This document shows positions 17,321 through 33,285 of a DNA stretch of 64,000 nt, piece by piece. Every line of letters starts with the position of its first letter. The first letter of the stretch is position 1. The DNA comes from Geothrix sp. PMB-07. Lineage in GTDB: Bacteria; Acidobacteriota; Holophagae; Holophagales; Holophagaceae. Location of the stretch: positions 3,162,992-3,226,991 of the forward strand of contig NZ_CP132333.1 in the NCBI RefSeq assembly GCF_030758935.1, given 5' to 3'. Position numbers and translations under genes: made by a program. The notes beneath the pieces were generated by a model, which was given only the letters and a program-made list of their open reading frames with translations, searched no databases and was not told the origin of the DNA.

Positions 17321-18163
17321 ATGTCTGCGTCGAAGAATCCCCTTCTGAACCGCCTGCACAGTGCCCAGGGGCTGTCCCCCAGCCAGCGGCAGATCGCGGA
17401 CTGCCTCATCGCCAACATGAACGAGGCGCCGCTCTGGGGCGTGGAGGAGTTGGCGGACAAATCCCAGACCTGCGTGGCCACGGTGGTGCGCTTCGCCAAG
17501 AAGCTGGAGTATTCCGGCTACCTGGAGATGCGCAAAGCCATGGTCAGCGCCGCCAAGAAGCACTATGGCCGCGGCGAGCAGCTGCTGCAGGCGCCGGTGC
17601 GCGCTTCGGCCACCCTGCTGGAAGTGGCGCGGCGGGATATGCGCAACATTGAAACGCTGGTGCAGGCGGTCAACGAAGACCTGCTTCAGAAAGTGGTCAA
17701 GCAGTTGAAGGGTGCGAGGCTGCGCCTGGCCATCGGCGACGGCGTGTCGGCCCTCATGGCGCGGCAGCTGGCCTACCTCCTCATCAACACCGGCCTGCCT
17801 GTGATGGAAGGCAACCCCGCCGACTTCGCCACCCAGGTGGGCATGCTGGACAGCAAGGATCTGCTCATCGCCTTCAGCATCAATCCCTACACGCAGGAAA
17901 CGCTGGACGCCGCCGCCTACGCCCGCAAGCGGGGTGTGCCCGTGCTGGCCTTCACCGACACCCTGAACTCGCCCCTGGCCAAATCCGCCACCCTGACGCT
18001 GCCCATCCCCGGCGAGAACCTGCTCTTCTCCCACAGCGTCACGGCTTTTGGCGTGCTGGCCCATGCCATTGCCACCTCCATCGCCAGCCAGGCCCCCCAG
18101 GTGGCCCTGAACAAGCTGCGCGAGGTGGAGCGCGTGGCGCGCCAGAAATTCGCGCGGACATAG
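17321..18163 (+). CDS. MurR/RpiR family transcriptional regulator
   Basis: 280 aa. The N-terminal RpiR-type helix-turn-helix spans about residues 1-77 (LSPSQRQIADCLI, then TCVATVVRFAKKLEYSGYLEMR as recognition region). It is followed by a sugar-isomerase (SIS) domain at about 120-250 (DLLIAFSINPYTQETLDAAAYA), which binds a phosphosugar effector in studied members. It ends in a strong intrinsic terminator. It stands just upstream of the TonB receptor and peptide-scavenging genes, but nothing in the sequence proves that it controls them. Confidence 0.9.
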   Translation: MSASKNPLLNRLHSAQGLSPSQRQIADCLIANMNEAPLWGVEELADKSQTCVATVVRFAKKLEYSGYLEMRKAMVSAAKKHYGRGEQLLQAPVRASATLLEVARRDMRNIETLVQAVNEDLLQKVVKQLKGARLRLAIGDGVSALMARQLAYLLINTGLPVMEGNPADFATQVGMLDSKDLLIAFSINPYTQETLDAAAYARKRGVPVLAFTDTLNSPLAKSATLTLPIPGENLLFSHSVTAFGVLAHAIATSIASQAPQVALNKLREVERVARQKFART

Positions 18164-18206: not shown

Positions 18207-18302
18207 GAGTTCTATGAACATTGATGAAAAAAAACTTGACTCGCTTTTGACAGAAGCATTACTTTTTGGTCACCAATTTCAATAACCCCTTTCGGAGGCG
18301 TG

Positions 18303-21074
18303 ATGGCTAGAAACACTGGCAATTCCAGATTCAGTGCGCTCGCGCTGGCGCTCGTGGCGGCCCCGGCGGTCTTGATGGCGCAGAGCAGCACGACCTCCGC
18401 CCTGACTGGCGTGGTGAAGGACCCCAAGGGCAAGCCGCTTGCCGATGCAAAGATCAGCGCCACCTCTGAGAGCCTCATTGGCGGGGCTCGCGTGGTGGTC
18501 AGCGGATCCCAGGGTGCGTTTCGCATCTCGGCGCTGCCGCCAGGGAATTATGTCATCACGGTTGAAGCCGCTGGCTATCCGACCATCAAGCAGACGGTCC
18601 AACTCAGCCTTGGCTCAACTTCCAACCTGCCCATCCAGTTGCAGGCTCAGGCCTCTGCCACGGTGGAAGTGATTGACCGCTCCAATGCCGTCGAGCCCAC
18701 TCCCACTGGACTCGGCAAGGCCTATTCCCTGGATGAACTGGAGTCGCTGCCTTACAAGCGGGATCTGAGTTCCATCGCAGACCTGACCCCTGGTGTGAAT
18801 GGCGGCATCGCCTGGGGCGGTGACCGACGCAATGCGAACGCCTACCTCCTTGATGGCATGAACATCGGCGACCCGAGCACTGGCACTCCGTGGATCTACT
18901 CCAATCCTGAATGGTTCCAGGAAGTCCAGGTGGGCGGCATCGGGGCCTCGGCCGAGTTCGGCGGATTCACAGGTGGTTTCATCAACGCGATCATCAAGCG
19001 GGGCAGCAACAAAACCGAGGGTGCCTTCAACAGCTATTACAACACCTCGGACTGGCAGGCCAAGACCAGCAACCGCGCACCAGGCATTGACCGAACGGTT
19101 CAGAAGGCCCACAGCTCTGACCTCTCCCTGAGTGTGGGGGGACCGATCATCAAGGACAAACTCTGGTATTTCGTGTCGGCAGAACAAATCGTCGACCAGC
19201 AGACCCCCATTGGTGCCCCGGTGCCCGTGGAACTCACCAACCCTCGATACCTCCTGAAAGTCACCTGGCAGGCCACCCCCAACGGGACCCTGGAGGCCTT
19301 TGGAGAATACGACAAGGTGTCCAGAGAGCACCGCGGCATCAGCAACCAGACCTCCATTGAGGCTTCCTGGAGGCAGGAGGCCCCCAACCACAGTTACGGC
19401 CTCACCTGGACCCAAGTCTTCGGTTCTTCGGCCGTCCTGACTTTGCGGGCGACCTCCTTTGGCGGTCGAGATGACGCGCTTGCCTATCACGGGGAAAACC
19501 CCTCGCTCTACATCGCCTCAGGCTACAACCCCAATGACCCATCCAGTTCCACGGGACTCCTCTACACCTTCAACAACACCTATACCGTCGACAGCGTTTA
19601 CAAGTCCCGCGGCAGCATCGCCGCCACCCTCGACCTCTTCAAGACTGGCCTATTTAGTTCCACTGATGCCCATGCATTCAAGTTTGGCATCGAGCGCGAG
19701 CAGTCGGGTGATGAGGAGCTGGAGCGCTTCCCCGGCGGCGTCAGTTACAACGCAGACTCAGATTCCGGAGGAGTCTACACCGACTTCGTCCAGGTGGGCG
19801 GCGGCTACAACATCCGCGCTCGCATGGACCGGCTGGCCGCCTTCGCCCAGGACTCCTGGACGGTCAACAACAGGCTCACCCTTCGTCCGGGCCTGCGCTT
19901 CGAGCAATTCAAGGGCCGGGGCTATGGCGGTTCCAGCTCCATCTGGAACACCAGCACATTGGCTCCTCGGTTTGGCCTGACGTTCGCCCTCACCGAGGAT
20001 CAGAGAAGCCTCCTGAAAGCCAGTTGGGGACGCTTCTTCGACGGCGTGGGTACAGCCTATTTCGACCGCGCCATCCCTGGAGCCTATAGGCCTGAAACCC
20101 GGCATACCTGGGGCAGCAACGACTACTTCACCGATTTCAACCACCTCTCGGCGATTCCTTACAATCCCGTTCCCTACACCACCATCAGTGATGTGACCGC
20201 CATCGATCCCAACATCAAGCACCCATACATGGACGAGGCGACGCTATCCATCGAACAGAAGCTAGGCGACCTCTGGTCCATGACATTCACAGCCGTGCAC
20301 AGGCAGTCGAAGGACCTCATCATCCGCGTGAACCGGGCGCTCCGCGAGGATACAGATCCGGCCAATAGCCTGGATGCCTACAACCTGATCACTGGAAAGG
20401 TCATGCACCTCTTCAATGCGCTGGACGACGCGCAGGACTACTACATCACCAACAGCGACAAGGCGAAGCGCGCCTACCAAGCGCTCAGCCTCAGCGCAGA
20501 GCGCCGCTACGCGGACCATTGGAGTCTGTTCACCAGCTACACTCGCGCCATGCGGCACGGCAATCTGAACCGATCGAACGGGTACGACGATGCGTTCGCG
20601 AGCCCGAACTCTCAGATCAACTTCGACGGGCCCCTCCCCTATTTCAGCGATGACGAAATCAAAGTCCGTTTCTCATACGAAACGCCTTGGAAGACTCGTT
20701 TGAGCGCCAGCTTCACCTACCTTTCGGGTGAACATTGGACCCCCACCATCAGCACTTTCCGAGACAACAACTCCTCTCGCTGGAGCATCCTCGCCCAGCC
20801 CAGGGGGTCAGAACGATATCCCGCCCGCCGTCTTCTGGATCTCCGGGCAAGCCAGATGATCGTGAAGAACAAGGGACTGAGTGCTGAGATATTCCTCGAT
20901 ATTTTCAACGCCCTGAACTCGGGCTCCGCCCTGGGTTGGAACACCCGCGTCAATGCGGTCCGCACCGATTCGGCCACCGCAACCGGCGCCAACGACATCT
21001 ACAGCGACTACAAGAGCCCCACCAGCGCCGAAACGCCCCGGAACCTCCGTCTCGGGTTGAGAGTCACGTTCTAG
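18303..21074 (+). CDS. TonB-dependent receptor with N-terminal carboxypeptidase-regulatory-like domain (Oar-type)
   Basis: 923 aa. A signal peptide ending near AVLMAQ is followed by a CarboxypepD_reg-like beta-sandwich (TGVVKDPKGKPLADAKISA). A plug domain (about 130-260, with LLDGMNIGDP and GGFINAIIKRGSN) and a long outer-membrane barrel ending LRLGLRVTF follow. The C-terminal Phe is typical of outer-membrane proteins. Acidobacteria and Myxobacteria carry many such Oar-like receptors for bulky substrates. ATG 18303 is preferred to the adjacent GTG because CGGAGG is correctly spaced. The 96-nt upstream region is AT-rich relative to the genome and probably holds its promoter. Confidence 0.92.
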   Translation: MARNTGNSRFSALALALVAAPAVLMAQSSTTSALTGVVKDPKGKPLADAKISATSESLIGGARVVVSGSQGAFRISALPPGNYVITVEAAGYPTIKQTVQLSLGSTSNLPIQLQAQASATVEVIDRSNAVEPTPTGLGKAYSLDELESLPYKRDLSSIADLTPGVNGGIAWGGDRRNANAYLLDGMNIGDPSTGTPWIYSNPEWFQEVQVGGIGASAEFGGFTGGFINAIIKRGSNKTEGAFNSYYNTSDWQAKTSNRAPGIDRTVQKAHSSDLSLSVGGPIIKDKLWYFVSAEQIVDQQTPIGAPVPVELTNPRYLLKVTWQATPNGTLEAFGEYDKVSREHRGISNQTSIEASWRQEAPNHSYGLTWTQVFGSSAVLTLRATSFGGRDDALAYHGENPSLYIASGYNPNDPSSSTGLLYTFNNTYTVDSVYKSRGSIAATLDLFKTGLFSSTDAHAFKFGIEREQSGDEELERFPGGVSYNADSDSGGVYTDFVQVGGGYNIRARMDRLAAFAQDSWTVNNRLTLRPGLRFEQFKGRGYGGSSSIWNTSTLAPRFGLTFALTEDQRSLLKASWGRFFDGVGTAYFDRAIPGAYRPETRHTWGSNDYFTDFNHLSAIPYNPVPYTTISDVTAIDPNIKHPYMDEATLSIEQKLGDLWSMTFTAVHRQSKDLIIRVNRALREDTDPANSLDAYNLITGKVMHLFNALDDAQDYYITNSDKAKRAYQALSLSAERRYADHWSLFTSYTRAMRHGNLNRSNGYDDAFASPNSQINFDGPLPYFSDDEIKVRFSYETPWKTRLSASFTYLSGEHWTPTISTFRDNNSSRWSILAQPRGSERYPARRLLDLRASQMIVKNKGLSAEIFLDIFNALNSGSALGWNTRVNAVRTDSATATGANDIYSDYKSPTSAETPRNLRLGLRVTF

Positions 21075-21101
21075 CGTCAGTCGACTTCACCAGCAGGGCA
21101 C

Positions 21102-21127
21102 CCACGGGCCGAATTGTCGGCCCGTGG
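21102..21127 (+). terminator. Hairpin after the TonB receptor gene
   Basis: Perfect 11-bp stem CCACGGGCCGA/TCGGCCCGTGG with a 4-nt loop (ATTG), 27 nt past the stop. No T tract follows, so it may slow rather than end transcription into the cyanophycinase gene. Confidence 0.6.
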
Positions 21128-21157
21128 ATGTGCCAAGCTCCGCCTGAAAGGCCTTCC

Positions 21158-21994
21158 ATGCAGCGGCTTCTTGTGGGCGTAGCCCTTCTTTTCACATCCA
21201 TGTTCGCAGCTTCCCAGATACCCCCCAAAGGCACCCTGGTCATCGTGGGCGGCGGAGGATTCCCTGCGGATGTTCAGGCGGCCTTCTTCCAGGCCTGCGG
21301 CGGACGCGGCGGTGTGGTGGGCATCATCCCCACGTCCACCAGCGATCCCGAAGGGGCGCTCAAGGAGTGGAAGGCTGATCTCGACCAGGTGGGCATGGTC
21401 TGTGTGCCCTTGGATGTGAGACGCCGCGAAGACGCCTCCAACCCCGAGCTGCTGAAAGCGGCGGCGCGATGCACCGGGTTCTGGTTTTCGGGGGGAGACC
21501 AGAACCTGGTGGGGGACAAGATCGTGGGCACACCGTTGCAGAAGCTCATCCTTGATCGCTATGCCGCAGGCGCGGGCGTGGGAGGCACCAGTGCGGGCGC
21601 AGCCATCATGTCCAAGGTGATGCTCACCGGCGACGACCGCCACGGCAAGGAAGCCCTCTCTGAATTCGGCCCAGGCGCCTACCAGACCCGCGAAGGCATG
21701 GGCTTCCTGCCCGCGGGCGTGGTGATCGATCAGCACTTCCTGCGGCGTGGCCGGGAGAACCGCCTCTTCAGCGTCCTGATGGAACGCCCGGACCACCTGG
21801 GCCTGGGCATCGACGAAGCCACCGCCCTGGTGGTGAAAGATGGCCGGGCCACGGTGGTGGGGCAGCGCTCCGTCATGGTCTTCGATCCGGCGGGCATGGC
21901 GCTCAAGGGCGAGACCTTCCGCGACCTCCGCATCCACCTGCTGAAGACCGGCCAGTCCATCGATCTGGCCACCCGCAAGATCAGCCAGCCATGA
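21158..21994 (+). CDS. Secreted cyanophycinase-like serine peptidase (family S51)
   Basis: 278 aa. A signal peptide covers residues 1-19 (MQRLLVGVALLFTSMFAAS). The S51 fold is indicated by VIVGGGGFP, WFSGGDQNL and the nucleophile elbow G143-T-S145-A-G. Cyanophycinases cut the multi-L-arginyl-poly-aspartate polymer into beta-Asp-Arg dipeptides, and S51 members share the catalytic Ser/His arrangement. The signal peptide means an external substrate, as for the CphE type. The neighbouring isoaspartyl dipeptidase, which handles the dipeptide product, supports the call. A different S51 peptidase activity remains possible. The stop overlaps the next ATG. Confidence 0.82.
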   Translation: MQRLLVGVALLFTSMFAASQIPPKGTLVIVGGGGFPADVQAAFFQACGGRGGVVGIIPTSTSDPEGALKEWKADLDQVGMVCVPLDVRRREDASNPELLKAAARCTGFWFSGGDQNLVGDKIVGTPLQKLILDRYAAGAGVGGTSAGAAIMSKVMLTGDDRHGKEALSEFGPGAYQTREGMGFLPAGVVIDQHFLRRGRENRLFSVLMERPDHLGLGIDEATALVVKDGRATVVGQRSVMVFDPAGMALKGETFRDLRIHLLKTGQSIDLATRKISQP

Positions 21995-23574
21995 AGGCCT
22001 GGGCGGGCCTGAGGTGCCCTTCCCACTCCTCCCTGCTTTGTCCCTGGTGTTCTCTGCAGAAGGCCGTCAGATCAATCCGCGTTGGTCGATCCCGTGGACT
22101 GGCCCTGACCTTTGCCTCCGCGGTCGGTTTCGCGGCGGGCCCGAAGGTCCCCTTCCCGGCGGATCACCGCGCCATGAAGCAGACGGTGTCCTATGAGCAG
22201 ATGTCGACCTTCCTGGAATCCGTGGCGCGGCCGGGGCTCATCACCGTCACCGAAGAAGGCCGCAGCACCCAGGGCCGCAAACTCTACCTGGTGCATCTGA
22301 ACCGGGGCGGCGCCAAAGCTCAGTCTGGGGCCCGCTTCAAGGTCTTCTACTATGCCCAGCAGCATGGCGATGAAGTGGCGGGCAAGGACGCGCAGCTGAC
22401 CCTCATCCGCGACATCGCCGAGCATCCGGAACAGCTGCCCGAGGACGTGGACCTCTACCTCATGCCGATGGTCAACCCCGATGGCGCGGAGGCCCACCAG
22501 CGTTTCAACGGCGTGGGCGCCGACCTCAACCGCGACCACCTGCTGCTGGCCCAGCCTGAAACGCAGACGCTGCACCGCGTGGCCCGCCGCATCCGTCCCC
22601 ATCTGGCGGTGGACAGCCATGAGTTCGGCCGCGATGGGGAGGACTACACCAAACACGGCTGGGAGGCCTGGCCCGTCATCACCATGGATGCCTGCAACCA
22701 CCCGCTCATCCCCGACTACCTGAAGGTCGCTGCCCTGGAGGCCGTCGGTACCGCTGCGCCCCTGCAGCAGAAGGCCGGCCACGCCTACCGCCGCTACAGC
22801 GTAGGGGGGCCGCCGCCGGATGAGGAGATCCGCCCCTCCACCTCTGAAGTGGATGATGGCCGCAATGGCATGGGCACCCTGGGCGCGCTCTCCTTCATCA
22901 TCGAATCCGGCGTGCGCCACCGCTCCGCCGACCCCCAGGCGGACCTGGGCGAGCGGGTGGACGGCTACCGCATCCTCTACCGGCACCTGCTGGGGGACCG
23001 CGCCTGGCGCCAGCGCATCCAGCGCCTGGCCGAGCGCGCCCGTCGTGAGCCGCTGCCACCCTTCATCGCCACGAACACCTTCTGGGCGAACCTGGGAGGC
23101 AAGGTCAGCGCCGTGAAAGTGCGCGAGGTGGCCACGGGGAAAACCATTGAAGTGCCCACCGCCAATGCCATGACGGATCTGGTGGTAAAGGGCAGCGTGC
23201 CCACGCCCCGGGCCTATGTCATCGATGCTGCCGCCGCGGCCCGCTTCGTGCCGGTGCTGCAGGCCCAGGGCCTCGGTTTTGAGACCCTCGCAGCGCCTCG
23301 GCGAGCGCGGGTCGAACGGGTGAAGCTGCTCCGCCTCGAAGAACCCTACGATGAGCTGTACCAACGCTACAAGGATCGCCAGATCGTGGCACGGGAACCC
23401 CAGGCCGAGGTGGACCTGCCCGCGGGAACCCTCATCGTGTCCCTCGACCAGGATCTGGCCCGCCGGGCCATCCAGGTGCTGGAACCCTGCCTGCTCTACG
23501 GCCTCTATGGCTACCCTGGTTTCCGCGAGTTGGCCCGCCCTGGCGCCGACCTGCCCGTGTCCCGCCTCTTCTGA
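21991..23574 (+). CDS. M14-family zinc carboxypeptidase
   Basis: 527 aa, starting with an ATGA overlap. The M14 zinc ligands are visible as H125-G-D-E128 and H210 (AVDSHEF). The substrate-binding N180-R181 pair is in ADLNRDH. The catalytic Glu is probably in the SFIIESG segment. The N-terminus is basic then hydrophobic (RGLALTFASAVGFAAG), consistent with export. About 170 residues follow the catalytic domain with no family I recognise. Being coupled to the cyanophycinase gene, it may trim the same peptides from the C-terminus, for example releasing Arg or Lys; this is an inference. Confidence 0.85.
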   Translation: MKAWAGLRCPSHSSLLCPWCSLQKAVRSIRVGRSRGLALTFASAVGFAAGPKVPFPADHRAMKQTVSYEQMSTFLESVARPGLITVTEEGRSTQGRKLYLVHLNRGGAKAQSGARFKVFYYAQQHGDEVAGKDAQLTLIRDIAEHPEQLPEDVDLYLMPMVNPDGAEAHQRFNGVGADLNRDHLLLAQPETQTLHRVARRIRPHLAVDSHEFGRDGEDYTKHGWEAWPVITMDACNHPLIPDYLKVAALEAVGTAAPLQQKAGHAYRRYSVGGPPPDEEIRPSTSEVDDGRNGMGTLGALSFIIESGVRHRSADPQADLGERVDGYRILYRHLLGDRAWRQRIQRLAERARREPLPPFIATNTFWANLGGKVSAVKVREVATGKTIEVPTANAMTDLVVKGSVPTPRAYVIDAAAAARFVPVLQAQGLGFETLAAPRRARVERVKLLRLEEPYDELYQRYKDRQIVAREPQAEVDLPAGTLIVSLDQDLARRAIQVLEPCLLYGLYGYPGFRELARPGADLPVSRLF

Positions 23575-23610
23575 ACGCGCACCGGGCCCCGCGGTCCGGC
23601 AGGAGTCCCC

Positions 23611-24777
23611 ATGATGTTCCTGATCAAGAATGCCGATGTGTACAGCCCCGAACCCGGCGGCCGCTGCGACCTGCTGATCGGCGGCGGCAAGATCCTCCGC
23701 ATGGAGCCCGACATCCGCATCTCCCGCAAGTACTGCGAGGTGGTCGATGCCCGCAATCTGCGCGCCGTGCCTGGCTTCATCGATGGCCACGTCCACATCA
23801 TGGGCGGTGGAGGCGAGGGCGGCTTCGCCACGCGCACTCCGGACCTGCCCCTGACCGATGCCATCACCGGCGGCGTCACCACCGTGGTGGGCTGCCTGGG
23901 TACCGATGGCTATACCCGCACCATGGCCGGGTTGCTGGCCAAGGCCAAGGGCCTCGATGAAGAGGGCATCAGCACCTACGTGTATTCGGGCTCCTACGGC
24001 GTGCCCCTGCGCACCCTCATGCCCAGCCTCGAAGAGGATCTGCTCTTCATCGACAAGGTCATCGGCGCGGGCGAAGTGGCCCTGTCCGACCACCGCTCCA
24101 GCCAACCCACCTTCGAGGCCTTCGCCCAGGTGGTGGCCACGGCGCGGCGCGGCGGCATGCTGTCCGGCAAGGCCGGCATCGTGAACGTGCACCTGGGCGA
24201 CGGCCCGCGGGGCCTGGAGTTCCTCCGTCGCATCATCAACGAAACTGAACTTTCTCCCCAGCAGATGCTCCCCACCCACATCAACCGCAACCCTCAGCTG
24301 TTCGAGGAAGGCATCGCCTACGCCAAGGGCGGCGGCTTCGTGGATTTCACCACCTCGACCCTGGCTTCATACCTGGATGACGGCGAAATCCCCTGCGCCC
24401 GGGCCCTGCGCCTCATGCTGGAGGCGGGCGTGGATCCAGGCCAGATCACCTTCACCTCCGATGGCCAGGGCAGCCTCCCCGACTGGGACCGCCATGGCCG
24501 CCTGCAAGGCATCTCCGTGGGCCGCGTGCTGTCGCTGTACCAGGCCGTGCGCCAGGCCGTGCTGCAAGAGGGCCTGCCCCTCGAAACCGCGCTGCGCGTC
24601 ATCACCTCGAACCCGGCCCGCATCCTCAAGCTGAAGGGCAAGGGTCGCCTGGAGCCGGGCATGGACGCCGACATCGTGCTGCTGGATCCGAAGGATCTGG
24701 AAGTGCGCACGGTCATGGCCAAGGGCCGCCTCCTGATGAAATCCGGCAAACTGCTGGCGAAGGGATTGTTCCAGTGA
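23611..24777 (+). CDS. iadA: Isoaspartyl (beta-aspartyl) dipeptidase IadA
   Basis: 388 aa amidohydrolase. The metal site starts with H60-V-H62 in PGFIDGHVHIMGGGGEGG, the IadA-specific signature. Further conserved points are GLLAKAKGLDEEGI, SDHRSSQPT, PTHINRNP and TSDGQGSLPDWD, the last holding the catalytic Asp. The enzyme cleaves beta-Asp-X dipeptides, which arise from damaged proteins or from cyanophycin. No signal peptide, so it acts in the cytoplasm on imported dipeptides. It follows the M14 gene by 36 nt with GGCAGGAG upstream, and its TGA overlaps the transporter GTG. Confidence 0.95.
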   Translation: MMFLIKNADVYSPEPGGRCDLLIGGGKILRMEPDIRISRKYCEVVDARNLRAVPGFIDGHVHIMGGGGEGGFATRTPDLPLTDAITGGVTTVVGCLGTDGYTRTMAGLLAKAKGLDEEGISTYVYSGSYGVPLRTLMPSLEEDLLFIDKVIGAGEVALSDHRSSQPTFEAFAQVVATARRGGMLSGKAGIVNVHLGDGPRGLEFLRRIINETELSPQQMLPTHINRNPQLFEEGIAYAKGGGFVDFTTSTLASYLDDGEIPCARALRLMLEAGVDPGQITFTSDGQGSLPDWDRHGRLQGISVGRVLSLYQAVRQAVLQEGLPLETALRVITSNPARILKLKGKGRLEPGMDADIVLLDPKDLEVRTVMAKGRLLMKSGKLLAKGLFQ

Positions 24778-26255
24778 ATGCTCGCGAACGCGCCTACCAG
24801 GCCGCCCGGCAGGGCAAGGTCCCCACTCCACCACCACCGCCGCCACCGACATCCTCCAGCCTGAAGATGCCCCACACCCTGGTCATCGTGGCGGCCCTCA
24901 TCCTGCTGGTGCTCATCCTTTCCTGGCTGGTGCCCTCCGGGGAATTCCAGCGCATGGAAAAGCTGCTGCCCGATGGCAGCCGCCTGAAGGTGCCCGTGGA
25001 TGGCACCTACCATCAGCTGACCAAGACCTACCTGGGCCTGCAGACCCTCTTCCTGTCGCCCATCAAGGGGTTCCTGGACGGCGCGGGCCTCATCTCCTTC
25101 CTCCTCATCATCGGCGGCAGCTTCGGCATCTTCCAGGAGACCGGCGCGGTGGAGCAGGGCATCAAGCGGCTCACGGTGCATGTGCGCCGCCACCCCTGGC
25201 TGGAGACGCTGTTCATTCCGGTGCTCATGGCCGTGTTCTCCCTGGCTGGCGCCGTGTTCGGCATGGCCGAGGAGCTCATCCCGCTCGTCATGATCTTCAT
25301 CGCCCTGTCCCGGGCCCTGGGCTACGACTCCATCGTGGGCACGGCCATCCCCTTCCTGGGCGCCGCCGCGGGATTTGCCTGCGCCTTCTTCAACCCCTTC
25401 ACCGTGGGCGTGGCCCAGGGCATCGCCGGAGTTCCGATCTACTCGGGCCTGGCCTACCGCGTGTGCGCCTGGGTGGTCGCCACGGGCGTGGTCATCGCCT
25501 ACGTGATGATCTATGCCGCGAAAATCAAAAAGAACCCCGAGCTGAGCCCCGTGCGCGACATCGACCTGGCCCGGGAAAGCCAGGCCAGCGGTGCGGGCGA
25601 TTCCTGGAACGCCAAGCACATCCTGGCCCTCCTCACCTTCCTGGGTGCCCTCATCCTGCTGGTCTACGGCGTGCTGAAGCACCACTGGTATCTGGAACCC
25701 ATCGCAGCTCTTTTCCTGGGCATGGGCATCCTCATCGGCCTCATCAGCCGCATGGCCCCCAGCACCATCGCCAAGCACTTCGTGGCTGGCGCCAAGGACA
25801 TGGTGGGCGTGGTGTTCATCGTGGCCTGCGCCCGGGCCCTGCTGGTCATCGCCAACGATGCACGCATCATGGACACGCTGCTGCTGTGCGGATCGTCGGC
25901 CATCAAGGTGCTGCCCAAGGCCATGACCGCCCAGGTGATGTTCCTGCTGCAGTGCGGCATCAACTTCTTCATCCACTCGGGCACCTCCCAGGCCGCGCTC
26001 ACCATGCCCGTGCTGGCGCCGCTCTCGGACCTGGTGGGCATCACGCGCCAGACCTGCGTCTACAGCTTCGCGCTGTCGGAACTCATCAACCCCATCCTGC
26101 CCACCAGCGCCGTCACCATGGGCGTACTGGGCGCGGCCAAGATCCCCTGGGAGCGGTGGGCGAAGTGGTTCCTGCCCCTCATGCTCATCCTCGTGGTGCT
26201 GGCCTTCCTGCTGCTGGTGCCGCCCACGCTGTTCTTCCATTGGGGCCCGGTGTGA
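24774..26255 (+). CDS. YfcC-family membrane carrier (DcuC/ArcD-like)
   Basis: 493 aa with about 12 predicted helices and a Pro-rich cytoplasmic N-terminus. Family landmarks include GLISFLLIIGGSFGIFQETGAVE, GMAEELIPLV and HSGTSQAALTMPVLAPLSD. Members are related to C4-dicarboxylate and arginine/ornithine carriers; substrates of most YfcC proteins are unknown. The GTGA overlap with iadA and the ATGA overlap with the peptidase downstream place it in the scavenging operon. It is a candidate for import of beta-aspartyl dipeptides or for exchange of their products. Confidence 0.85.
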   Translation: MNARERAYQAARQGKVPTPPPPPPPTSSSLKMPHTLVIVAALILLVLILSWLVPSGEFQRMEKLLPDGSRLKVPVDGTYHQLTKTYLGLQTLFLSPIKGFLDGAGLISFLLIIGGSFGIFQETGAVEQGIKRLTVHVRRHPWLETLFIPVLMAVFSLAGAVFGMAEELIPLVMIFIALSRALGYDSIVGTAIPFLGAAAGFACAFFNPFTVGVAQGIAGVPIYSGLAYRVCAWVVATGVVIAYVMIYAAKIKKNPELSPVRDIDLARESQASGAGDSWNAKHILALLTFLGALILLVYGVLKHHWYLEPIAALFLGMGILIGLISRMAPSTIAKHFVAGAKDMVGVVFIVACARALLVIANDARIMDTLLLCGSSAIKVLPKAMTAQVMFLLQCGINFFIHSGTSQAALTMPVLAPLSDLVGITRQTCVYSFALSELINPILPTSAVTMGVLGAAKIPWERWAKWFLPLMLILVVLAFLLLVPPTLFFHWGPV

Positions 26256-27811
26256 TGGGGGGCGGAAGGCTACGCACGGCCCTCCTCCTCGGCTTGACGG
26301 TGTTTGCATCTGCCCAGGAACCCGCAGCCGATTTCATCCGCGTCACCCGAACCGAGGCGCTGCCTGCCCCCCTGGCCGCCGCCCTGGAAGACCTCGATAC
26401 CAAGCGCATCTCCAGCCACCTGGCCTTCCTCACGGATCCCCGCCAGCAGGGCCGTGGCCTGGGCACCCGCGGCCTGGACACCACCGCCCGCTACCTGGCG
26501 GACCACCTGAAGCAGGCCGGGATTCCCGCCCTGAGTCCCTCCTACGTTCAGGCCGTGCCCCTGCGTGAGGTTCGGCCTCGCCAAGGGCACGTGAACCTGC
26601 GCACCGCGCAGGGGGTCATCCGCTTCCTGGCCGGACGGAACGCCGTGCTGCCCAGCGTCGCGCCGGGCGCCCTCTCCGGACCAGCGGTGTTCGTGGGCCA
26701 TGGCATTCAGGAACCGGCCCTGAATCACGACGATTTCCGCGGCGTGGACGTGCGTGGCAAGGTGGTGGTCTTCCTCGATGGCCTGCCCTCGGGCGAGGCC
26801 TGGCGGAAGCCGGAGCTCCAGGAGAAATACGCCTCCCCCCGCCCCGCGGATCGCTACGACACGCGACTGGCCCTGCTGGAAAAGCTGGGGGCCAAGGCCG
26901 CCATCGCGGTGGAAGAGGGCCTCGCCCAGCGCATCACCGAGGGCAAGGAAAAGGCCCTGCCCTACTTCCTGGCCGCCCCCCGCGTTCCCGGTTCCGGCGA
27001 GCCGCCCCTGGCCCGCGTGGCCCCCACCGAACCCCTGCGGGCCTGGATGGCCTCTGGAGGCGCAGCCGCTGCCGAGTTGTCGATTCGTGGTGAAGTGCAC
27101 CCCCTGCAAAGCCGCAATGTCCTCGGGATGCTGAAGGGCTCCGATCCGGCCCTGGCCCAGGAGGCCGTCCTCATCGGCGCCCACATGGACCATCTGGGGC
27201 TGCCCAACGGCGTGCTGCACCCAGGCGCCGATGACAACGCCTCCGGGGTGTCGGCCCTGCTGGAGATCCTGCGCACCCTCGCCGCCAGTCCGGAGCGCCC
27301 GCGCCGGACGATCCTCATCGCCTTCTGGACCGGCGAGGAGGAGGGCAAGTTCGGCTCGGGCCACTACACGCGCCATCCCCGCTGGCCCCTGGCGAAAACC
27401 CGGGCCTACCTCAACCTCGACATGATCGGCCACCCCTGGCTGCCCGCAGATCTGAACACTCTGCTCACCGACTCGGGCATGAAGGATCCGAAGGCATTCC
27501 TCGAAGGCCTCGATCCCGCCACCTTCGCTGAGCCAGGCCTTGCCGCAGACAGCCGGGAGCTCGGGCCCATCCTCGCCCAGGCCGGCCGCGGCACGGGCAT
27601 GTCCCTGCACCTGGACTGGACCGATGGCCGCAACGGCGGCAGCGACTACCGCGACTTCGCGCGGCTGAAGGTGCCCTTCGTGCGCTTCTTCGGCAGCTAC
27701 TTCCCCGAGTATCACCAGCCTGGCGACACCGCCGATAAGCTCGACCCCAACCAGGTGAAGCGCATGGCCCGCCTGGTGCTCGCCACCGCCTGGCTGCTGG
27801 CAGAGCGCTGA
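26255..27811 (+). CDS. Secreted M28-family zinc aminopeptidase
   Basis: 518 aa from an ATG overlapping the transporter stop. A signal peptide (LRTALLLGLTVFASAQ) leads into a region with a PA-like inserted domain (about 100-280). The M28 metal motifs follow: GAHMDHLG, GADDNASG, the catalytic pair in WTGEEEGKFGS, LNLDMIG and the final His in EYHQPGDTADK. It removes N-terminal residues from peptides in the periplasm or outside. It is the last gene of the scavenging operon, followed by a long inverted repeat. Confidence 0.9.
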   Translation: MGGGRLRTALLLGLTVFASAQEPAADFIRVTRTEALPAPLAAALEDLDTKRISSHLAFLTDPRQQGRGLGTRGLDTTARYLADHLKQAGIPALSPSYVQAVPLREVRPRQGHVNLRTAQGVIRFLAGRNAVLPSVAPGALSGPAVFVGHGIQEPALNHDDFRGVDVRGKVVVFLDGLPSGEAWRKPELQEKYASPRPADRYDTRLALLEKLGAKAAIAVEEGLAQRITEGKEKALPYFLAAPRVPGSGEPPLARVAPTEPLRAWMASGGAAAAELSIRGEVHPLQSRNVLGMLKGSDPALAQEAVLIGAHMDHLGLPNGVLHPGADDNASGVSALLEILRTLAASPERPRRTILIAFWTGEEEGKFGSGHYTRHPRWPLAKTRAYLNLDMIGHPWLPADLNTLLTDSGMKDPKAFLEGLDPATFAEPGLAADSRELGPILAQAGRGTGMSLHLDWTDGRNGGSDYRDFARLKVPFVRFFGSYFPEYHQPGDTADKLDPNQVKRMARLVLATAWLLAER

Positions 27812-27912: not shown

Positions 27913-29253
27913 CTACCTGAGCTCCACCTCGGCGTACCAGCCCTTGCTCACGATCTTGGTGCCGTAGGGCGCGGAGAGCTTTTGCATCAGGGCGATGATC
28001 TCGGCCCCGCGCTTGGTGCTGGCCAGGCGGGGCACGCCGAAGAGGGGGCCCTCATCGTCGATGGTGATGGGCAGCAGCTGGATGCGCTTGAGCTTGCCCT
28101 GGTTCATCACCATGCGCACCATCACCGTTTCCATGACCTCGCGGGAATCGCGGCGATCCCACACCGATTCATTGAGCCGCTTCGGCATCTCGATGTCGCG
28201 CTGGTTCAGCAGGTCGGCGTGGATCTTGTCCGGCGTGCGGTACTGGTAGATGAAATCGCCCAGGCTGTAGAAGATGGGCCGGCCCTTGTAGATCTCGATG
28301 CCCCGCAGCACATGGGGGCCGGTGCCGATCACCATGTCTGCCCCGGCCTCGATGGCCCGGCGGTACATGATCTCCTCGTTGGGCGGCGTGGTGTCCTGGA
28401 TGCCGTAGGCGCGGTGGTGGGTCACGTCGTGGTTGTGCAGGGACACCAGCAGCAGGTCTGTCTTGCGGCGCGCCAGGAGGATGTCCTCCTCCATGGTGGC
28501 CACATCGGATTCCAGCGGGCCCTCCACCTTCTCCACCTTGCCGTCCCGCATGGCCAGGACCACCGCGGGGTCGATGGTGGCCAGGGAGGGCGCATCGGGA
28601 TTCTTGCTGCGGTATTTGGCCGTCCAGTAGCGCATGTAGGAGAGCAGGCCGACCGTGCTCTTGTGACCTGCCAGCTCCGTCTTCCCCAGAGCGTGGGCTT
28701 CGGCCAGCGTCGTGCCCGCACCGGCGTGGGTGATGTTGGCGTGATCCAGGGCCTCCAGGCATTCCTTGAGCCCCTCGGGGCCGAAATCCATGGCGTGGTT
28801 GTTGGCCTGGCTCACCAGGGTGATGCCGGTGCGGGCCAACTCCCACCGGAAAGCCCTGGGCGCGCGGAAATTGTAGAAGGGCCGCTGCAGCTCGGGCCGG
28901 TCGTTGAGGGAGAACTCCATGTTGCCGTAGGCCACATCCGCCTCCTGCATGAGGCGGAAGAGGCCTGCCCGCTCGGGCTCCTGCAGCTGGGTGATGGGCT
29001 GGTTGAAGATCATGTCGCCCACGGCGGTGAGGGTGAGATCGCCCGGCTCCTCCTTGAGCAGCTCCGCGATGCGGCCCGCCCAGTCGATGCGCTCGGCGGG
29101 CTCGACCGGATGAACCCGCCGCTGGTACACGGAGCGGGGATCATCCTTCAGGAGGTCCGGGGCTGCCTGGGCCTGCGCAGGGAGCGCCACCAAGGCCGCG
29201 GCGAGTGAAAGGAGGAAGGGTTGCATCCGGCGCGTGCGAAAGTTCCCAGCCAT
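27913..29253 (-). CDS. CapA/PgsA-family metallophosphatase-like protein
   Basis: 446 aa from the ATG at 29253, which has GAGGAG upstream; a signal peptide follows (FLLSLAAALVALPAQAQA). The CapA fold is recognised by LTAVGDMIFN, AYGNMEFSLND, SQANNHAMDFG, DLLLVSLHNH and VIGTGPHVLRG with FYSLGDFIYQ. The family is named for poly-gamma-glutamate capsule synthesis, but most members are uncharacterised metallophosphoesterase relatives, and no pgsB or pgsC lies here. It is divergent from the methyltransferase gene. Confidence 0.88.
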   Translation of the reverse strand: MAGNFRTRRMQPFLLSLAAALVALPAQAQAAPDLLKDDPRSVYQRRVHPVEPAERIDWAGRIAELLKEEPGDLTLTAVGDMIFNQPITQLQEPERAGLFRLMQEADVAYGNMEFSLNDRPELQRPFYNFRAPRAFRWELARTGITLVSQANNHAMDFGPEGLKECLEALDHANITHAGAGTTLAEAHALGKTELAGHKSTVGLLSYMRYWTAKYRSKNPDAPSLATIDPAVVLAMRDGKVEKVEGPLESDVATMEEDILLARRKTDLLLVSLHNHDVTHHRAYGIQDTTPPNEEIMYRRAIEAGADMVIGTGPHVLRGIEIYKGRPIFYSLGDFIYQYRTPDKIHADLLNQRDIEMPKRLNESVWDRRDSREVMETVMVRMVMNQGKLKRIQLLPITIDDEGPLFGVPRLASTKRGAEIIALMQKLSAPYGTKIVSKGWYAEVELR

Positions 29254-29367
29254 GGGCGGCTCCTCAGATTGCAGAATCGGGCATGCACAATTTTGTTTCA
29301 TTTTTGGCAATCAGGCAAAGATTTTCGAGCATGCCTCCTGGGTCGCACGGCGTTCTATGCTGGTGGA

Positions 29368-30716: not shown

Positions 30717-31679
30717 ATGCGCGTGAAGGCCCTGCTTTCGCTATTCGTCTCGTCCGCCCTGAGCCTGTGCGCCCAGGACGTGGTGCGCCTGGGCAACCTC
30801 AAGTTCGCCCACTACGGCGCCGTGTCCTACATGAAGGAACTGGCCCCGAAATACAGGCTGAAGATCGAAGAACGCATGTTCGCCAAGGGCATCGACATCA
30901 ACCCGGCCATTGTGGCCGGCGAGATCGATGCCAGCGCCGCAGCCCTGGACGCGGCCATCGCGGGCCGAGCGGCGGGCGTGCCCATCGTCGTGGTGGCGGG
31001 CTTCGCCCGGGGCGGCGCGCGCCTGGTGGTGCGTCCCGATGCGGGCATCCGAGCCTTGAAGGATCTCAAGGGCAAGAAAGTGGGTGTGGCCCGGGGCGGG
31101 GCCCAGGAACTGCTGCTGCTGGCCGAGCTGGCCAAGGCCGGTCTCAGCTGGTCAGACAAGCCCGGCAAGGATGTGCTGGTGCTCTACCTCCCCTTTGCCG
31201 ACCTGAACCAGGCCCTCATGGCCAAGAACATCGACGCCATGTGCCAGAGCGAGCCCTACAGCTCACAGGCCATCAACAAGAAGTTCGGCGTGGAGCTGCT
31301 GAAGCCCTACGACACGCCCATCGGCGAACCCATCCGCGCCCTGGTCATCACCGAGAAGCTCTACAAGGAGCGTCGCGATGTGGCCCAGCGCTTCCTGAAC
31401 TGTTTTGTGGAAGCCACCAAGAAATTCATCGACGAGCCCAAGACCGCGGAGAAATTCGTCCGCGAAGTGATGTTCAAGAACCAGATCAGCGCCGAGGACT
31501 ACCAGGACGCCATCGGCAACTCGCCCTTCAGCTACGACATCACCCTGCAGCACGTGCAGATCACCACGGATCTCATGGCCAAGTACGGCGTGGGCAAGAT
31601 GGCCAATCCGCCCAAGGCCGGCGACTGGGTGAAGCTGGACCTCCTCACCGAGGCCAAGAAGCAGCTGAAGGTGAAGTAG
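30717..31679 (+). CDS. ABC transporter substrate-binding protein (NMT1/SsuA type)
   Basis: 320 aa with a signal peptide (MRVKALLSLFVSSALSLCA). The NMT1/THI5-like fold shows in LGNLKFAHYGAVSYMKE, the mid segment ALKDLKGKKVGVARGGA and PFADLNQALMAKNIDA. Such proteins capture sulfonates, nitrate, taurine or pyrimidines for import. There are no monooxygenase, thiamine or nitrate genes nearby and no riboswitch visible upstream, so the ligand is open. The stop overlaps the permease GTG by one base. Confidence 0.88.
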   Translation: MRVKALLSLFVSSALSLCAQDVVRLGNLKFAHYGAVSYMKELAPKYRLKIEERMFAKGIDINPAIVAGEIDASAAALDAAIAGRAAGVPIVVVAGFARGGARLVVRPDAGIRALKDLKGKKVGVARGGAQELLLLAELAKAGLSWSDKPGKDVLVLYLPFADLNQALMAKNIDAMCQSEPYSSQAINKKFGVELLKPYDTPIGEPIRALVITEKLYKERRDVAQRFLNCFVEATKKFIDEPKTAEKFVREVMFKNQISAEDYQDAIGNSPFSYDITLQHVQITTDLMAKYGVGKMANPPKAGDWVKLDLLTEAKKQLKVK

Positions 31680-32497
31680 TGAAGGCATTCAAGCACGCGG
31701 CCTCCGGCATCCTCGTCCCGCTGGCGGCCCTGGCCCTCTGGCAGCTGCTTTCCAGCAAGGGCTGGGTGAACGCCACCATCCTGCCCTCGCCCTGGCAGGT
31801 GCTGGTGAAGTGGTGGGCCTACCTGAAGCCCCTGGAGGCCTTCGATCCCGCCCAGGGCTCGTACCTGAAATGGTGCCTGAGCGGCGAGCTCATCCAGGAC
31901 GCCGCCGGCAGCCTCTACCGCGTGTTGCTGGGCTTCGCCATCGGCGGCGGCCTGGCCCTGCCCCTGGGCCTCGCCATGGGCTACAGCCGGTTGGCCTACG
32001 GCCTCTTCAACCCGCTCATCCAGGTGCTGCGCCCCATTCCCCCCATCGCCTACATCCCCCTCTCGATCCTCTGGTTCGGCCTGGGCAACCCACCCGCCAT
32101 TTTTCTCATCAGCATCGGCGCCTTCTTCCCGGTGCTCATGAACACGGTGACGGGCGTGCAGACCGTAGACAGCATCTACCTGCGCGTGGGCCGCAACCTG
32201 GGCGCCTCGCGGTGGACGCAGTTCACCCGCATCATCCTGCCCGCCGCCACGCCCTACATCTTCACGGGCGCGCGCATCGGGATGGGCACGGCCTTCATTG
32301 TGGTGATCGTCTCCGAGATGATCGCCGTGAACAACGGCCTGGGCTACCGCATCCTCGAAGCCCGCGAGTACCTGTGGTCGGACAAGATCATCGCCGGCAT
32401 GTTCACCATCGGCCTGCTGGGCCTGGGCATCGACACGCTCATGAGCCGCCTCAGCTCGCGCCTGCTGACTTGGCACCGGGGACTGGAGCAGTCATGA
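31679..32497 (+). CDS. ABC transporter permease (SsuC/TauC type)
   Basis: 272 aa, starting with GTG that shares its first base with the previous stop (TAGTG). It has about six helices and the cytoplasmic EAA loop is represented by VGRNLGASRWTQFTRIILPAATPYI. It forms the membrane channel for the adjacent binding protein and ATPase. The stop overlaps the next ATG (ATGA), so the three genes are translationally coupled. Confidence 0.92.
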   Translation: MKAFKHAASGILVPLAALALWQLLSSKGWVNATILPSPWQVLVKWWAYLKPLEAFDPAQGSYLKWCLSGELIQDAAGSLYRVLLGFAIGGGLALPLGLAMGYSRLAYGLFNPLIQVLRPIPPIAYIPLSILWFGLGNPPAIFLISIGAFFPVLMNTVTGVQTVDSIYLRVGRNLGASRWTQFTRIILPAATPYIFTGARIGMGTAFIVVIVSEMIAVNNGLGYRILEAREYLWSDKIIAGMFTIGLLGLGIDTLMSRLSSRLLTWHRGLEQS

Positions 32498-33285
32498 GCC
32501 ACATCTCCATGCAAGGCGTGCACAAGGTCTTCCAGAGCGGCGGCCAGGACGTGCAGGCCCTCCAGGCCATCGACCTGGACATCCCCCAGGGTCAGTTCGT
32601 CTGCCTCCTGGGCCCCTCGGGCTGCGGCAAATCCACCCTGCTAAACGCCGTGGCGGGCTTCAGCCTGCCCTCTGCCGGTGTCATCACCGTGGAGGGACGG
32701 ACCATCTCAGAACCGGGCCCGGACCGCGGCATGGTGTTCCAGGAATACGCACTCTTCCCCTGGATGACGGTGGAGCAGAACATCGCTTTCGGCCTGCAGA
32801 TCAAGAAGATGGCCAAGCCCGTCATCCAGACGAAGGTGGACGAACTGCTGGGGCTCCTCCATCTCCGGGATTTCCGCAAGCGCTACCCCAAGGATCTCAG
32901 CGGCGGCATGCGCCAGCGCGTGGCCATCGCCCGGGTGCTGGCCATCGATTCCCCCATCATGCTCATGGACGAGCCCTTCGGCGCCCTCGACGCCCTCACG
33001 CGCCGTACGCTGCAAGACGAACTGCTGCGCCTGTGGGTGGAGCTGAAGAAGACCATTCTCTTCGTCACCCACAGCATCGAGGAGGCCCTCTACCTGGCGG
33101 ATCGCACCATCGTCATGACCTACCGGCCCGGCACCATCAAACGCGACCTGGCCATCGACCTGCCCCGTCCCCGCGATGTGGCCAGCCCCGCCTTCAACGC
33201 GCTGAAGAAGGAGCTGAGCCAACTGCTCATGGAGGAGCAGGACCGGCACACCCAGGCTGAGTTCCGGGGCGCGGCGGTGGATTAG
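32494..33285 (+). CDS. ABC transporter ATP-binding protein (SsuB/TauB type)
   Basis: 263 aa. Walker A GPSGCGKST, Q-loop VFQEYALFPW, signature LSGGMRQR, Walker B IMLMDEPFGALD and the switch His in FVTHSIEEAL are all present and intact. It powers the importer formed with the two preceding genes. It ends 17 nt from the convergent VOC gene. Confidence 0.95.
   Translation: MSHISMQGVHKVFQSGGQDVQALQAIDLDIPQGQFVCLLGPSGCGKSTLLNAVAGFSLPSAGVITVEGRTISEPGPDRGMVFQEYALFPWMTVEQNIAFGLQIKKMAKPVIQTKVDELLGLLHLRDFRKRYPKDLSGGMRQRVAIARVLAIDSPIMLMDEPFGALDALTRRTLQDELLRLWVELKKTILFVTHSIEEALYLADRTIVMTYRPGTIKRDLAIDLPRPRDVASPAFNALKKELSQLLMEEQDRHTQAEFRGAAVD

Follow-up and report, generated by a model that had tools for sequence, protein, structure and literature searches.

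Eight-gene cassette in Geothrix with features of cyanophycin scavenging and a YfcC-family carrier as candidate importer of beta-aspartyl dipeptides

Dying cells can release cyanophycin, a nitrogen store, into soils and sediments. The Bacteroidetes strain L21-Spi-D4 carries a cyanophycin utilization locus in which one or more cyanophycinase genes, iadA and a transporter gene are found together (Ben Hania et al., 2017, as described in PMC10206079). Secreted cyanophycinases and an isoaspartyl dipeptidase have been reported in Ca. Sulfomarinibacter, a member of the Acidobacteriota (PMC8528874), and a TonB receptor adjoining a cyanophycinase gene is also on record (PMC3400609). We analyzed a stretch of 64,000 nucleotides of the Geothrix sp. 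PMB-07 genome (the window), which holds the combination that marks such loci, a cyanophycinase, an isoaspartyl dipeptidase and a transporter in one cluster. An earlier interpretation made from the DNA letters only (the sequence-only reading) had proposed a candidate locus of this kind, a concept that the three accounts just cited precede. The kind of locus was already known; the new parts are its eight-gene form, the recurrent link with YfcC and the exchangeable dipeptidase. As far as the L21-Spi-D4 locus is described in PMC10206079, it shares with the window the clustering of cyanophycinase, iadA and transporter and the proposed scavenging of cyanophycin made by others, whereas the window belongs to a different phylum and adds an RpiR regulator, a TonB receptor, M14 and M28 peptidases and a CapA protein. 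The transporter described there may already be of the YfcC family, and the suggestion that the YfcC carrier would be the first clue to an importer has to be withdrawn, as earlier work had already noted a transporter at loci of this kind. Ca. Sulfomarinibacter is of the same phylum as our genome and, like it, combines an isoaspartyl dipeptidase, no synthetase and the same proposed use; its cyanophycinase carries a Sec signal, to which the signal-like N-terminus of the window protein would correspond. The part of PMC8528874 considered here describes no operon, carrier or receptor.

Six genes had been named in the sequence-only reading, and we confirmed them at 18303-27811, in the order given and all on the + strand. 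They code for an Oar-like TonB-dependent receptor with an N-terminal CarboxypepD_reg domain (18303-21074; PF13620, PF25183 and PF00593 above cut-off), a predicted exported S51 cyanophycinase (21158-21994), a probably exported M14 metallocarboxypeptidase (21991-23574; PF00246, 60.9 bits) whose true start may be downstream of 21991, the cytoplasmic isoaspartyl dipeptidase IadA of family M38 (23611-24777), a DcuC/YfcC-family inner-membrane carrier (24774-26255) and a predicted exported M28 aminopeptidase-like protein (26255-27811; PF04389, 142 bits). The overlaps said to exist at most junctions are found at three of the five (S51/M14 and IadA/YfcC, 4 bp each; YfcC/M28, 1 bp), while gaps of 83 and 36 bp separate TonB from S51 and M14 from IadA. 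The gene set thus stood, but its borders did not, because two further genes belong to the cassette: an RpiR/MurR-family regulator with HTH_6 and SIS domains (17321-18163, + strand; PF01418 and PF01380 above cut-off) and, convergent with the operon, a predicted exported CapA/PGA_cap protein (27913-29310, − strand). The cassette therefore comprises eight genes, from the RpiR regulator through the CapA gene, in a genome consisting of a single contig of 4.24 Mb. The order RpiR, TonB, S51, M14, IadA, YfcC, M28 and then CapA on the opposite strand is conserved in the copies of the same genus, and the order of the six genes is identical in every complete copy.

The genes for S51, M14, IadA, YfcC and CapA are present or absent together: the same 10 of 25 genomes of the genus (our own included) carry them all, and 15 carry none. 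One of the carriers has two copies of the cassette, and some copies in draft genomes are split across contigs. The site is constant, between an AlkZ-like gene that precedes RpiR and a methyltransferase gene that follows CapA. In five cassette-less genomes nothing lies between the AlkZ-like and methyltransferase genes, and in a sixth (G017, L195:8600-10784) an intact RpiR gene and the C-terminal 200 residues of YfcC separate the two, a remnant that is a deletion scar of the cassette. The methyltransferase gene itself was rejected as a member, as it occurs in nearly all members of the genus and adjoins the AlkZ-like gene in genomes without the cassette. M28 is found in most copies and is absent from L040 and L115. 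The TonB receptor is present in every copy, yet only 41-46% identical within the genus, against mostly 64-90% for the remaining proteins of the cassette; the receptor seems to change fast, perhaps under pressure from phages or substrates. Homologous loci with these genes separated had been named in advance as evidence against the grouping, and one sister genus of the same family provides them: genomes G121, G353 and G364 keep TonB, S51, M14 and IadA together and have YfcC elsewhere. The grouping is therefore strong, not universal.

The S51 protein, which had been read as a secreted, cyanophycinase-like enzyme, agrees with that description in every sequence and fold test and looks exported. It scores 156.2 bits against TIGR02069, the curated cyanophycinase equivalog (cut-off 126.6). 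In an alignment to 3EN0 and a residue survey it is identical to CphB at all nine positions described as catalytic or pocket-forming (Gln101, Ser132, Asp172, Gln173, His174, Arg178, Arg180, Arg183 and Glu201; PMC3235067), its own residues being the catalytic Ser145, His193 and Glu220 and the pocket residues Gln115, Asp191, Gln192, Arg197, Arg199 and Arg202. All nine are kept in 49 of 49 YfcC-linked and 24 of 25 cphA1-linked S51 proteins, with two of the nine fixed by construction in L035-L114, which were fetched with two pattern words, and L115-L194, found by profile, free of this bias. The AF2 model (pLDDT 92.5) matches 3EN0 and 7UQW, the latter a substrate-bound CphB, at 2.0-2.5 Å, with TM scores of 0.81-0.84 by query and 0.87-0.88 by target; PepE is clearly worse, at about 0.60. 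An equally close fold match, with the same residues kept in the alignment, is 7UQV, which bears the PDB title 'pseudo-CphB' and reportedly showed no cyanophycinase activity. Sequence fit is therefore no proof, and we regard the S51 protein as likely active as a cyanophycinase. Judged by eye, its N-terminus is hydrophobic and signal-like (MQRLLVGVALLFTSMFAAS), and the same holds, by inspection, for M14 (whose start is uncertain), M28 and CapA. With CphB of Synechocystis (3EN0, 7UQW) it shares the fold and the nine key residues at about 28% identity in the structural alignment, but CphB is intracellular and linked to storage, and the window protein lies outside its clade. The extracellular, Sec-exported CphE of Pseudomonas is also an S51 serine peptidase with a Ser/His/Glu set and an Arg pocket (PMC3235067); it has Thr where the window protein keeps Gln173, and its gene measures 1260 bp, against 278 residues for the window protein.

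We found no cyanophycin synthetase gene (cphA1) in the genome (G000), whose best match to TIGR02068 reaches 44 bits at a cut-off of 850; the positive control, G004, reaches 1098 bits. G004 is the only carrier of cphA1 among the relatives searched, and there the gene lies beside a second S51 gene, apart from the scavenging cassette of that genome. In a tree of 120 S51 proteins, built by a quick method with a single support value, the cphA1-linked proteins fall into one clade with cyanobacterial CphB (support 100), and the S51 of the window and all other YfcC-linked ones lie outside it. At least eight changes of the linkage label are forced on well-supported branches, so the link between S51 and YfcC arose or was lost repeatedly. 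Storage was rejected as the function in this genome, given the absence of cphA1 and the separate clade of the cphA1-linked proteins. An S51 protein that fits a cyanophycinase, in a genome without the synthetase, is best explained by the scavenging of cyanophycin, or of something closely related, from outside the cell: with a probability of about two in three, the cassette would serve to scavenge material produced by other organisms, either cyanophycin or a beta-aspartyl polymer much like it. Points that stand against it include the position of the window S51 outside the CphB clade and the location of YfcC at another place in the three sister-genus genomes.

By its profile scores the carrier is assigned to the DcuC/YfcC superfamily (PF03606, 317.3 bits over residues 32-482, cut-off 23.1) and not to the equivalog of E. 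coli YfcC (NF008611, 368.4 bits, cut-off 500); a sequence search found no solved structure homologous to it. The link between S51 and YfcC recurs in 12 families of Acidobacteriota and in other phyla. We surveyed the neighborhoods of 80 Acidobacteriota S51 genes, counting as linked any gene within 10 kb, and found YfcC at 26 of them, in those 12 families, against 0.11 expected from the density of YfcC genes. At 15 of the 26 it is the adjacent gene on the same strand. YfcC lies at none of the 16 cphA1-linked loci (Fisher p = 0.0009, a value that ignores relatedness), and the linkage counts are non-independent, as they come from related genomes. Among 71 YfcC homologs scoring above 360 bits, 62 belong to genomes with S51 and 41 lie within 25 kb of it, as does one of the 31 homologs scoring 200-300 bits. 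The S51-linked carriers form one similarity class. Members of other phyla have the pair as well: Ignavibacteriales (L044), Bacteroidota (L046, L087) and Calditrichia (L050, where RpiR separates the two genes). Each half of the link is also seen alone, since some S51-YfcC pairs have no dipeptidase and, at L203, IadA and YfcC stand together with no adjacent S51. Our search of open papers returned none linking YfcC to cyanophycin.

IadA, already named in the sequence-only reading, clearly belongs to its family (TIGR01975, 506.1 bits, cut-off 331.25) and lacks a signal peptide by inspection; its nearest solved structures are the isoaspartyl dipeptidases 7CDH and 7CF6, and it is predicted to hydrolyze beta-Asp dipeptides. 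In this it is an equivalog-level isoaspartyl dipeptidase like IadA of E. coli, that of Leucothrix mucor (8DQN) and the M38 peptidase of Fervidobacterium (PMC7774594), from which it differs only in operon context. The cytosolic partner of the S51-YfcC pair is exchangeable: IadA accompanies the pair in the window, L151 and L161, IaaA (by sequence) in L166 and L178, an M20 PepT-like peptidase in L044, L046, L050, L087, L129 and L143, and a second type of M20 in L053, L130, L132 and L134, the other loci having none in range. The M20 PepT-like gene lies directly upstream of an exported S51, with YfcC, at L044:8728-9891, L046:8730-9923, L050:8743-9915 and L087:8730-9857. The IadA, IaaA and M20 partners that we inspected lack signal peptides, and the dipeptide therefore has to enter the cell intact. 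Together with the S51-YfcC pairs that stand without a dipeptidase, this is our main argument that YfcC would import the product of S51, and it places YfcC first among the candidates for the import of beta-Asp-Arg. For Firmicutes and Bacteroidota, the isoaspartyl dipeptidase has been reported as undiscovered (PMC10206079), and the M20 proteins are candidates for the one missing in Bacteroidota. We propose, tentatively and at somewhat less than even odds, that the S51-linked YfcC subgroup consists of dedicated beta-aspartyl dipeptide importers and that the M20 proteins whose genes immediately precede S51-YfcC in Bacteroidota, Ignavibacteria, Calditrichota and some Acidobacteriota form an additional class of isoaspartyl dipeptidases, which would take the part of IadA and fill the Bacteroidota gap. 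The comparison singles out a carrier subgroup and a peptidase group as candidates for dipeptide import and cleavage, and an exported S51 gene adjoining YfcC with no cphA1 beside it offers a signature that would tell scavenging from storage in genomes and metagenomes.

The RpiR regulator, which has no signal peptide by inspection, is conserved in place in the complete copies of the genus, and homologs also stand beside S51, YfcC and TonB genes in Ignavibacteria, Bacteroidota and Calditrichota (L044, L046 and L050); it is the probable local regulator of the cassette. Between it and the TonB gene, a putative footprint with a TTGACT box (GATGAAAAAAAACTTGACTCG..GCATTACTTTTTGGTCACC, 18223-18274, + strand) is conserved in nine aligned loci, and the rest of the intergenic region is not conserved. 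The footprint occurs at a single site in the window, and its near-full pattern at a single site in the genome; it is likely to be the promoter/operator of the operon.

The roles of the accessory proteins are less apparent. In M14 the HxxE, His and Glu motifs are invariant in the alignment, and the Foldseek matches of its low-confidence structure model are carboxypeptidases. CphZ enzymes, the AstE/AspA-like cyanophycin dipeptide hydrolases, are often annotated as M14 (PMC10206079); we rejected this identity, as the protein scores 22.8 bits against the AstE_AspA_cat domain (cut-off 25) and its weak model matches ordinary carboxypeptidase folds. CapA (PF09587, 171.3 bits, cut-off 27) has as its nearest solved relative the lasso-peptide epimerase MslH (8GQ9), to which it is related only, with 110.8 bits against the MslH equivalog NF038314 at a cut-off of 700. 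It is found in 10 of 10 genomes with the cassette and 0 of 15 without, and is 67% identical between the window and the distant Acidobacteriota locus L053. In the phylum, all 22 genomes with CapA, most of them related, also have S51, against a background of 138 of 376. Most S51-YfcC loci of the phylum lack CapA, which makes it an accessory to this core, and our guess is that it hydrolyzes or epimerizes the polymer or peptides in a metal-dependent reaction.

In the route that we propose, the Oar-like receptor would pass polymer fragments across the outer membrane, or dock the polymer, and the exported S51 enzyme, identified by sequence and fold, would cut the poly-Asp backbone to give beta-Asp-Arg. 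The exported M14 and M28 peptidases, with CapA, might trim or prepare side products; this is the weakest step, and to our knowledge none of the three has a known role in cyanophycin use. YfcC would carry the intact beta-Asp dipeptide across the inner membrane, as suggested by its recurrent linkage and the apparently cytosolic dipeptidases, and cytoplasmic IadA would hydrolyze it to Asp and Arg. RpiR would control the operon from the conserved footprint before the TonB gene.

Part of this route could be read differently. YfcC might be an arginine/ornithine antiporter for free arginine and its waste product, the dipeptides being split or entering otherwise, since the closest NCBIfam model bears the name 'putative basic amino acid antiporter YfcC', YfcC proteins elsewhere are annotated as arginine/ornithine antiporters and, in other bacteria, YfcC belongs to an arginine deiminase cluster (PMC9636832). 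We find this doubtful: the window carrier is under the cut-off of that very model, the cassette itself includes no gene for arginine degradation, and partner dipeptidases without signal peptides require that the dipeptide enter intact. The polymer itself could also be only one source among several. Exported S51, M14 and M28 would then degrade aged or cross-linked proteins and peptides, with the carrier and IadA recovering any beta-aspartyl dipeptides, a general salvage that would account for the two peptidases in the cassette, for the promiscuity of IadA enzymes from cyanophycin clusters (PMC10206079) and for CapA and, in L022/L023, a C45-type hydrolase, which suggest more than one type of bond. 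The S51 pocket, however, is that of a dedicated cyanophycinase and not of PepE, and many linked loci have S51 and YfcC without M14 or M28, so that we hold general salvage to be unlikely.

It is quite unlikely, in our judgment, that S51 and CapA process a different acidic isopeptide polymer (one containing beta-Asp-Lys, D-aspartyl or gamma-glutamyl units, for example). The strict pairing of CapA with the cassette within the genus, and with S51 across the phylum, its kinship with a peptide epimerase and the enolase-superfamily gene that distant relatives of the cassette add would all suit such a substrate, but CapA is missing from most S51-YfcC loci and every pocket residue of S51 matches CphB. 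As for a chance or housekeeping grouping of unrelated peptidase genes, we found nothing in its favor except the broad specificity of peptidase families, and the all-or-none inheritance at one site and the linkage recurring across families and phyla refute it, leaving it a negligible probability.

Besides the cassette genes, some neighbors deserve mention. SsuA/SsuC/SsuB-like ABC transporter genes at 30717-33285 are conserved in the genus whether the cassette is present or not. Both cassettes of G016 have a gene for a secreted C45-like protein (Ntn hydrolase) between IadA and YfcC (L022:12729-13979; L023:5488-6732), and a distant relative has a homolog of it close to its S51 locus (L053:4430-5734). 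The enolase-superfamily gene (MenC/racemase-like) of the distant cassette versions stands beside M14 at L053:12253-13413, L125:4907-7678 and L130:3613-5781.
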